Assembly (NCBI GenBank): GCA_030428695.1
Contig: JAUIEM010000351.1
Span: 1 to 10,805, forward strand
Source: a bacterium
GTDB taxonomy: Bacteria; Planctomycetota; J058; JAJDCP01
Direction of reading: 5' to 3'
Length of the DNA stretch: 10,805 nt
This document shows, in pieces, positions 659-6,904 of this stretch. A program made the position numbers and the translations under genes. The notes under the pieces were generated by a model. The model was not told where the DNA came from and ran no database searches. It saw only the letters and a list, made by a program, of their open reading frames with translations. How positions within the stretch are numbered: the first letter of the stretch is position 1; each line of letters starts with the position of its first letter.

Positions 659-3600
659 ATGAGCGCAACCTCCGACTCCCTGTGCGGGCAGCTGCTCGAC
701 GGCCGCTACCGCGTGCTCGAGCCCCTCGGCTCCGGGGGCGGCGGCGCGGTGTACAAGGTCGAGGACCAGCGCGACAAGAGCCTGTGCGCCCTGAAGCTGC
801 TCGCCGGCTTCGTCGCCGAAGACCCCGGACGGCTCGAGTACTTCCGGCACGAGTTCGCGCTGATCTCGCGGCTCCGCCATCCGCACCTCGCGCGGGCCCT
901 CGCCTTCGGGCAGGCCGACGAGCGCTACTACTACACCACCGAGCTGGTGGCCGGGCAGAACCTCTCCAGCTTCTGCGCCGCGCATCCTCCGGCGGAGTGG
1001 CTGCTGCCGATCGTGCAGGCGCTGCGGGTGCTCAACTACCTGCACACCGCCGGCCTCGTCCACCTCGATGTCAAGCCGGGCAACCTGCTGGTCTCCGCGG
1101 ACGACGACGGCCGCCCCGTCGTCAAGCTCGTCGACTTCGGCATGGTCGGCACCCGCGGCAACCGCCTCGATTCGGTGCGCGGCACCATCCCGTACGTCGC
1201 GCCGGAGGTCGTGCGCGGCGGGGAGATCGACGGAAGGGCGGACCTGTACAGCCTCGGAGCCACCCTGTACGAGATCGTGTCCGGCGCGCCGCCCTTCCCC
1301 GATGCCGACCCGATGAAGTCGTTGGAACGGCGGCTGAACGCGCGCCCCGGGGAGCTGGTCAGCGACCTGATCGAGCCGTCCCTCGCGGCCTGGATCATGC
1401 GCCTGCTCGAGCCGGACCCCGGCCGCCGCTTCGCGAGCGCCGCGGCGGCACTGAACGCGCTCCCCGGGACGTCGGAGCCGCTCCTGTTCGTCGAGGCGCC
1501 GACCGGCGCGGCCTACCGCCAGGCGCCCTTCGTCGGGAACCAGCGCCTGCTCACCAGCCTGGAGCGCTTCGCCCTCGAGCGCCTCGCCGGGGAGCATCCG
1601 GGCAGCGCCGAAGATCCCGCGCAGGAGCTCGCCGTGCCGCGCACCAGCGCCTTGCGCGACCTCGACGCCCTCCTGCCGTCGACGCCGGCCGCCGCCGATG
1701 GACTCGGCAGCCAGGAGCTCAACCCCGCGCGGCATGTGCTCGCCGTGCTGACCGGCGCCCGCGGCATCGGCAAGAGCCGGCTCTTGCGGGAGGTGATGCT
1801 CAAGGTGCAGCTGCAGGGCCTGCGCGTGCTGCTGACCACCCCCGAGCAGGGCGCGGTCGGGGCGCTGCAGAACCTGTTGCGGGACACCGGCTGCGCGATG
1901 CCGGCTCCCCTCGGCGAGCTCGACGAGGCGAGCCTCTCCGCCGACGAGACCTTGCGCGGGCGGATGGTCTTCGCCGCCGCCGAGAAGCTGCTCGCCGTCG
2001 CGGAGCACCAGCCCAGCTTGTGGCTGATCGACGACCTCGAGCGCCTCGACGGGCCGGTCACCGATCTGCTGCTCAGCCTGGTGTTCAAGATCTCCGAGAC
2101 CGGCAGCCCGCTGGCCGTGATCGCGGCGAGCGAGGCTCCGGAGCACCCGGCCGTCGCTCCCCTGCTCGCCCTCGACGGCGTGACCGCCCTCGCGGTGCCG
2201 CCCCTCGACCTGCACGCGACCCGGCGCATGGTCGAGGCGATCGTGCACCACACCGCCGCCGAGGGGCCGCTCCTGCACCAGGTGACCGGCGGCGTGCCCG
2301 GCTGGGTCGAGCTGTTCATCCGCGACCTCGACGAGCGGGGCCAGCTGCGCTTCGACCCGGACACCCAGAGCTGGACGCTGCTGCCGCACGCCGAGGTGCA
2401 GGAGTCCCTGGCCCAGGTCGCGCGACGCCGCGCCCGCGGCATCGACGGCGCGCTCGCCGAGGTGCTCGCCCACCTGCACCTCGCGGCCGGGCCGGTGCGG
2501 CTCGACCAGCTCGCGATCTGCCTCGAGCAGGAGATCGGCGCGATCTTCGAGCGCCTCTGCCACCTCGAGCGCATGGGGCTGATCGAGCGCAGCGACGGGG
2601 AGAGCCTGCGCTTCAGCGCGCGCCAGGAGCAGGTCGCCGCGGCCGCCGCCGACGGCCTCGATGAGGAAGAGCGGCTGCGCATCCACCAGCGGCTGTTCGA
2701 GCTGTTCTCGGCCGAGCTCGCCGAGCATCGCGGCGACGCGACGCCGGTGCCGCTGCTCGAGCGCCTCGCCCGCCAGGCCGACGCCTCGGGGCTGGCCGAG
2801 CAGGCCGTCGCCTACGCGAGCGAGGCGGCCGAGCGCGCCCTGCGGCTGTCCGCGGTGCCCTCGGCCCTGCAGCACGCGGCGATCGCCCTCAAGCACCTGC
2901 AGGGCTCCACCCGCCCGGCCGACCGCGAGAAGGCGGCCGCGCTGCGCACCTTGCGGGCCGAAGGCCAGCTGCTGCTCGGCCAGGCCGCCGACGCCGAGAG
3001 CACCCTGCGCGAGGCGCTCGCGAGCTCCGGAGCGCGGCCGGAGCAGCGGGCCCGCCTGCGCCTGCTGCTCGGGCGCGCGGCCCTCGAGCAGGCGAAGTGG
3101 GAGGTCGCCGAGAGCGAGTTCCTCGCCGCCAGCGAGCTCGAGTCGGTCGAGCTGTCCTGCTCGGCCCTCGCCTCCCTCGGCCGGCTGAACTTCCGCCGCG
3201 GCCGCTACGAGCGCGCCGAAGAGCTGCACGAGCAGGCCCTCGCCCGGCTGCGCGAGGCCGGGGCGGAGCGCGAGCTGCCGGCGGTGCTGCGGGCGCTCGC
3301 CGAGGTCCACATCGAGAAGGGACGCTACGACACCGCCCTGACGGTGCTCGAGGAGGCCCAGGACCGCAGCCGGCGCTTCCGCGATCTGGCGGGGAAGTCC
3401 GAGAGCGCGCGCCTGCTCTCGCAGCTGATGCTGTTCCAGGGCCGGCCGCGGCGCTCCCTCGAGCTGGCGACCGAGGCGCAGGAGACCGCGACGCGGGCGC
3501 ACCTGCCCGTGCTGCTCGCCCGCGCCCTGAACCAGATCGGGGCCGTCGAGTTCAGCCTCGGGCGCTTCAGCAACGCGATGGCCCGCTACCGCGCCTGCCA

Positions 3601-6600: not shown

Positions 6601-6904
6601 GAACGAGATCCACCGCCTGCAGGCGATGGGGGCGAAGGAGTTCAACGCCTCGGTGCTCGCCCCGAAGATCGGGGGGCCGCAGACGACGGAGTCCTCGGGC
6701 GACACCGTCGACGCCTGGATCGGTCGGCCCCTGCGCCAGGTCGTCGACGAGGTCACCGAGAAGCTGATCACGCGCGCCCTCGACCAGGTCGACTGGCACC
6801 GGACGCGGGCGGCAGAGCTGCTCGGGATCCCGACCTCGACGCTGTTCAACAAGATGAAGAAGTACGGCATCGACAAGGTCTTCAGCAAGAAGCCCTCGGG
6901 CTGA
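659..6904 (+). CDS. Giant Ser/Thr kinase - STAND NTPase - TPR - GGDEF-like - GAF-like - sigma-54 activator fusion protein
   Basis: A 2081-residue soluble protein with no signal peptide or membrane segment. Domains in order: (a) Hanks-type kinase, about 15-270, with Gly-loop 24-29, Lys46, Glu65, Asp137 in HLD, Lys139, Asn142, DFG 159-161 and APE 181-183, so all catalytic residues are present; (b) AAA_16/STAND-like NTPase, about 290-680, with FVG 291-293, Walker A GARGIGKS 366-373, Walker B ending in Asp458-Asp459 and a winged-helix-like tail; (c) helical TPR solenoid, about 690-1390, with the clearest repeats at 840-1150; (d) GGDEF fold, about 1420-1580, whose signature is NDDTL (1500-1504), so inactive as a cyclase; (e) GAF-like domain, about 1600-1735, then a charged coiled coil (1738-1760); (f) sigma-54 AAA+ domain, about 1765-1990, with Walker A GESGTGKE 1796-1803, GAFSGA loop 1843-1848, Walker B Asp1867-Glu1868, arginine region FREDLYYR ending at 1928 and WPGNVREL 1973-1980; (g) Fis-type helix-turn-helix, about 2025-2071. 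It should bind DNA and remodel sigma-54 RNA polymerase, with kinase, NTPase and GAF parts acting as inputs (inferred). The ATG start is set by the intact kinase N-terminus; its ribosome site is weak. Confidence 0.93.

Follow-up and report, generated by a model that had tools for sequence, protein, structure and literature searches.

How does an activator of sigma-54 transcription receive its signal when a protein kinase, an NTPase, a long repeat region and domains of the GGDEF and GAF type precede its motor in one chain? This question is raised by an open reading frame (ORF) in a planctomycetal contig, of which the whole stretch of 10,805 nucleotides analysed here is referred to as the window. 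The earlier note on this DNA had proposed a single-chain route, in which a eukaryote-like Ser/Thr kinase and the NTPase gate the activator directly.

The ORF runs from an ATG to a stop codon and encodes 2081 amino acids (Table 1). Its codon-position GC content of 0.76/0.47/0.97 is a coding pattern in DNA of 72% GC. An antisense ORF (365-6799, minus strand; 2144 aa) covers nearly the whole gene; its codon-position GC of 0.95/0.49/0.78 mirrors that of the sense frame, and it was rejected as a gene and considered a by-product of the 72% GC. Given such an antisense frame, length alone is no proof of the 2081-residue gene; the proof lies in the domain matches. In a protein search, the closest relative, P0002, matched the protein end to end, with 72% identity across 100% of its length. 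An assembly error fusing two genes, a possibility that the earlier note had named as fatal to its reading, is refuted by this match, and 22 of the 27 GGDEF-bearing proteins listed (the window's own included) have kinase, NTPase, GAF and AAA+ domains in this order. No evidence in favour of such a chimera was found, and we regard it as extremely improbable. The uninterrupted multidomain frame is confirmed by the ORF, its codon pattern, the order of Pfam matches and P0002. The gene neighbourhood between the window and P0002 is probably conserved, too: a 69% relative of the adjoining isopentenyl phosphate kinase is located on a contig of 15273 bases, as is P0002, and we infer that this is the same contig.

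Table 1 Features of the 2081-residue protein and their positions in the window
Feature	Position	Strand	Evidence
Whole gene: kinase, STAND-like NTPase, TPR, pseudo-GGDEF, GAF, sigma-54 AAA+, Fis HTH	659..6904	+	ORF, Pfam, codon GC, P0002
Hanks-type kinase domain, residues 14-261	698..1441	+	Pfam Pkinase 17-259 (1e-36); motifs
STAND-like NTPase (AAA_16), residues 361-488	1739..2122	+	Pfam 7.6e-10; Walker A and Walker B-like motifs
TPR solenoid, residues 835-1099 (best stretches)	3161..3955	+	TPR_10, TPR_12 (5.8e-24) and TPR_MalT matches
GGDEF-fold domain, catalytically degenerate, residues 1423-1575	4925..5383	+	Pfam GGDEF 4.2e-18
RSLD (1491-1494), c-di-GMP inhibitory-site motif RxxD, in register	5129..5140	+	Family alignment
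NDDTL (1500-1504) in place of the GGDEF catalytic motif	5156..5170	+	Family alignment
GAF domain, residues 1595-1742, adjoining the AAA+ motor	5441..5884	+	Weak GAF_2 in P0002; model and fold match
Sigma-54 AAA+ domain, residues 1768-1934	5960..6460	+	Pfam Sigma54_activat 4.9e-69; motifs
Sigma-54 contact loop GAFSGA (1843-1848), T-to-S variant of GAFTGA	6185..6202	+	Motif search
AAA+ lid, residues 1940-2005	6476..6673	+	AAA_lid_14 7e-13
Fis-type helix-turn-helix, residues 2035-2069	6761..6865	+	HTH_8 1.8e-10

The first half of the protein follows the order by which PknK-type kinases are defined, namely kinase, AAA NTPase and MalT-like TPR, as seen in the Pfam matches, TPR_MalT among them. It differs from that type in that the chain ends in a sigma-54 activator and the kinase is of the non-RD kind (HLD). 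The NTPase carries a Walker A motif (GARGIGKS, 366-373) and a Walker B-like motif (LWLIDD, from residue 454). The succession of AAA_16 and TPR is that of STAND NTPases, a P-loop NTPase followed by repeats; a Pfam nSTAND3 match lends no support to this assignment, as it was below the cut-off and fell on the sigma-54 domain. The TPR solenoid probably continues towards residue 1410. The C-terminal part has the features of sigma-54 enhancer-binding proteins: an AAA+ domain with Walker A (GESGTGKE, 1796-1803), Walker B (FLDEIS, from 1865) and lid, followed by the Fis-type helix-turn-helix. The AAA+ domain had been described as complete, which holds for the Walker motifs and the lid but needs refinement at the contact loop, which reads GAFSGA and not GAFTGA. 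Counting the window's own protein, six of the 120 best-listed have the former and 99 the latter, which makes the loop, as read from the sequence, unusual in an otherwise mostly feature-complete enhancer-binding protein.

These 120 proteins are the best-scoring among 999 found, with the window's own included, so that counts made on them lean towards its architecture. Using domain profiles grown from the window protein on the same set (the HTH excluded), we identified kinase, NTPase, GAF and sigma-54 AAA+ domains, in that order, in 104 of the 120. The statement that these parts normally occur as separate proteins is not supported by this count. The source names of best-listed relatives include Planctomycetota, Acidobacteriota and Deltaproteobacteria, and this variety, together with the 104 cases, indicates that the kinase-sigma-54 fusion is in itself widespread, an architecture without a name; some of these large proteins, which share the backbone of the window protein, are annotated as 'sigma 54-interacting transcriptional regulator'. 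The GGDEF domain is the less usual part: it is present in 27 of the 120 and absent from 93, in contrast to the window protein. No paper on the fusion family was found in the portions of the open-access literature searched, and a term look-up in PMC1262709, PMC2877116, PMC11032199 and PMC7159879 gave 0 occurrences of sigma54.

When the last 682 residues were compared with 199 Planctomycetota genomes, 51 of these had a match at E 1e-92. Of all genomes searched, those of one planctomycetal class (that of genome G075) contain the nearest matches, with 43% identity over the C-terminal third; at 1e-105 a single match was found in each of 9 of its 12 genomes. GGDEF, GAF and AAA+ domains are present in all nine matches, whose N-terminal halves were read in part. 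The absence of matches at E 1e-100 from Myxococcota (0/195 genomes) and Acidobacteriota (0/199) shows little, as five or six candidates were scored per genome; a pattern scan of genome contigs was uninformative, the patterns falling within the common AAA+ motor. RpoN is encoded in 10 of the 12 genomes of the class and GGDEF domains in all 12, and the genomes of relatives can therefore hold both partners. RpoN had no match in G075 and G112, though G075 does carry the giant activator.

The kinase of the window protein retains its catalytic residues (K46, HLD 135-137, N142, DFG 159-161), including the lysine, aspartate and DFG aspartate expected of Hanks-type Ser/Thr kinases, and from these motifs it could be active. 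Among the 120 best-listed proteins the same three residues are kept in 102 of 116 assessable kinases. The proposed single-chain route is upheld in so far as a kinase with catalytic residues and an activator share one chain, with no receiver domain among its Pfam matches. Its further claim, that kinase and NTPase gate the activator directly, with Ser/Thr kinase activity as the main input, fits these intact residues, but is opposed by the history of the domain. In a tree of AAA+ and HTH sequences (80 rows: all 33 with GGDEF and 47 of the 93 without, every second one being taken), the window falls in a clade of 25 rows (SH-aLRT 99), each of which has a degenerate GGDEF domain. The tree shows a single change in kinase catalysis, its loss in the window's clade: of the 17 assessable rows there, 14 are without the catalytic residues and three (the window protein, P0002 and P0003) have them, while the RxxD motif and the AAA+ motor persist throughout this loss. 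As far as sequences tell, what the clade has conserved is something other than kinase catalysis. Moreover, the protein of locus L115 has GGDEF, GAF, sigma-54 and HTH in one chain with RxxD kept and without a kinase match, and the Pfam matches of the window protein do not include FHA or another phospho-binding domain. We therefore regard kinase activity as the main input as quite unlikely.

L115 may not stand alone. The frame of L116 shows a coding pattern only from about residue 1200 onwards, so that this protein, too, is probably kinase-free. L111, a class member with a frame of 1962 residues, gave no kinase or AAA_16 match, which may reflect a damaged start of the frame or a genuine absence. 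A search started from the kinase-free protein of L115 returned 26 matches, of which only its own has a GGDEF Pfam match. The gene (L115:5630-8242, minus strand) adjoins one for outer-membrane efflux.

The domain called GGDEF-like in the earlier note has indeed the GGDEF fold, and it can now be specified as catalytically degenerate. Besides NDDTL at the motif, glycine replaces both the first metal aspartate and the catalytic asparagine, residues with established roles in metal binding and catalysis. With all three elements replaced, cyclase activity is most unlikely, and an active diguanylate cyclase, which would have GG(D/E)EF together with the metal aspartate and the asparagine, was rejected. 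Many relatives read FGDEF or FGDQF at this place; PMC3974145 reports that a changed first glycine of the motif can be tolerated.

The inhibitory site shows a different pattern. The family has 39 GGDEF domains, near-copies such as L105 and P0012 included, and its 35 degenerate ones were reduced to 17 representatives less than 80% identical to each other. Neither the first metal aspartate nor the catalytic asparagine occurs in any of the 17 (0/17 each), whereas R1491 and D1494 are kept in 16, R1498 in 17 and R1522, presumably the position of a second inhibitory-site arginine of PleD, in 16. All four belong to the 16 most conserved of the 164 columns of the GGDEF alignment. RxxD stands nine residues ahead of the catalytic motif in 34 of the 35 degenerate domains (near-copies included) and in 16 of the 17 representatives; P0062 has a degenerate GGDEF without it. 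RxxD is not near-universal in the family: it occurs in none of the four canonical domains, which carry inserts at that place. P0002 shares an identical stretch of ten residues with the window protein, yet the two differ at the catalytic motif, which reads EDGRL in P0002 and NDDTL in the window protein.

Mere presence of RxxD is weak evidence, for it is common in other GGDEF domains: in four genomes of the G075 class it was found in 42 of 60 (23/33 with a strict GG[DE]EF and 19/27 without), a control set that left out sigma-54 proteins, unlisted matches of the four genomes and one listed G054 match. Nor are the 34 cases in the family independent, since much of it is one clade. The argument for c-di-GMP rests instead on an inhibitory site that has survived the decay of the active site, and on the recurrence of degenerate GGDEF with RxxD in P0004, L115 and L116, all outside the window's clade. 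By its inactive catalytic motif and in-register RxxD, the domain has the sequence hallmarks of a degenerate-GGDEF c-di-GMP receptor. Such receptors have precedents: according to PMC12564702, PopA keeps RxxD beside a degenerate active site, and PMC4877007 describes c-di-GMP binding by SgmT through a degenerate GGDEF and by the NtrC-like EpsI/Nla24.

The latter paper also reports the converse, TmoK of Myxococcus xanthus, whose GGDEF domain neither makes nor binds c-di-GMP. By this precedent, the pseudo-GGDEF could be a structural relic or a ligand-free module for protein-protein contact, the actual input being a ligand of the GAF domain or a partner read by the TPR region. The high background of RxxD would suit such a relic, and so would the GAF domain, which adjoins the motor and, when regions of the window protein (P0001) and P0002 were compared, had the lowest identity (53%; AAA+, 91%). 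Such a low value is what would be expected if the ligands differ. Against this speak the placing of R1491, D1494 and R1498 among the most conserved columns despite the decayed active site, and the recurrence of the pattern outside the clade. We consider a relic or ligand-free module a minority possibility.

The GAF domain itself gave no Pfam match in the window protein even at E 5, yet its earlier recognition is supported by other evidence. At the same place P0002 has a weak GAF_2 match (5.1e-4; 20.7 bits, below the curated cut-off of 28.6), and P0003 and P0010 have GAF matches above the cut-off. An AlphaFold2 model of residues 1585-1765, made separately, reached pLDDT 85.8; the PDB entries most similar to it are proteins with a GAF domain (best E 5.4e-7), including the GAF domain of A. 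aeolicus Nlh1, which we take to be a sigma-54 activator.

In enhancer-binding proteins the HTH binds enhancer DNA, the AAA+ domain remodels the sigma-54 polymerase and an adjacent GAF can repress this motor. On this model the window protein is an enhancer-binding protein of the sigma-54 type whose regulatory front end is very large: its C-terminal Fis helix-turn-helix would bind enhancer DNA and its AAA+ ring would remodel sigma-54 RNA polymerase. Judging by its position directly before the motor, the GAF domain may hold or release it, as in NorR, where repression of AAA+ by GAF is described (PMC2941729). The pseudo-GGDEF would make no c-di-GMP and, with its inhibitory site kept, would most likely bind it; its c-di-GMP state may be passed on to the GAF domain and the motor, with the kinase, STAND-like NTPase and TPR part adding further inputs or a scaffold. 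Because the cyclase module, though catalytically dead, seems to retain a site at which c-di-GMP can dock, a small molecule is likelier to be the main input than the kinase alone. Gating of the activator by a pseudo-GGDEF/GAF module that probably binds c-di-GMP, with the kinase as an extra input, is in our judgement the best reading, held at about even odds. Several observations count against a role of c-di-GMP: the RxxD background, the kinship within the clade, P0062, TmoK, the GAFSGA loop, the missing RpoN in G075 and G112, and a promoter scan that gave 0 sigma-54 promoter-like sites within the window, with 2.4 expected.

Compared with known systems, the window protein shares with NorR/NifA-type activators the GAF beside AAA+ and the C-terminal Fis HTH, but differs in its GAFSGA loop and in the kinase, NTPase, TPR and pseudo-GGDEF regions that take up the preceding 1590 residues or so. 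With PopA, SgmT, PelD and CdgA it has in common the dead active site and RxxD in register; its pseudo-GGDEF, however, sits inside a sigma-54 activator, and binding is a prediction from sequence. Like the c-di-GMP-binding NtrC-type activators FleQ, VpsR and EpsI/Nla24, it would couple c-di-GMP to an NtrC-type activator, and the c-di-GMP-responsive FleQ and EpsI/Nla24 are closest to it in logic. FleQ binds c-di-GMP on its AAA+ domain (PMC12564702), whereas the candidate site in the window protein is on a separate pseudo-GGDEF domain.

A broader and more tentative proposal concerns the whole clade of giant sigma-54 activators, which occur once each in the nine genomes of the class. It may have replaced enzyme chemistry by ligand sensing, with a dead cyclase as c-di-GMP receptor and a kinase that is dead as well in most members assessed, so that c-di-GMP would switch sigma-54 transcription through a module not like that of FleQ; the lineage of the window would have kept a live kinase, through which phosphorylation would act on this motor as a second input. 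If true, this would be a second route, beside the AAA+ site of FleQ, for c-di-GMP control of sigma-54 transcription. To our knowledge, there is little work on c-di-GMP or sigma-54 pathways in Planctomycetota. Loss of kinase catalysis while the fusion is kept makes the role of the kinase domain testable across live, dead and kinase-free members.

The comparison of neighbouring genes across genomes, which had been suggested as a check, gave no match at E 0.01 between six neighbours in the window and ORFs from ten loci of class orthologs. At the locus of one class ortholog, the second gene downstream (L107:4574-6340, plus strand) encodes a GGDEF protein, a possible local source of c-di-GMP, in which the motif is a canonical GGEEF and the ends look FHA-like by eye; the neighbouring genes at the other loci compared included nothing equivalent. 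In the window, just upstream of the giant gene and open at the window start, 3-575 (+) encodes a partial GGDEF-like end with GGIHF at the motif (Pfam 3e-6). A 2Fe-2S ferredoxin-type gene (7815-8180, +) is directly followed by a quinone oxidoreductase-like gene (8185-9201, +; PIG3 model, below cut-off), and a GAF-domain protein (9767-10804, −) is cut by the window end. The isopentenyl phosphate kinase gene (6923-7780, −) matches its NCBIfam model above the cut-off; nine of its listed relatives have organism names, seven archaeal, one deltaproteobacterial and one of Levybacteria.
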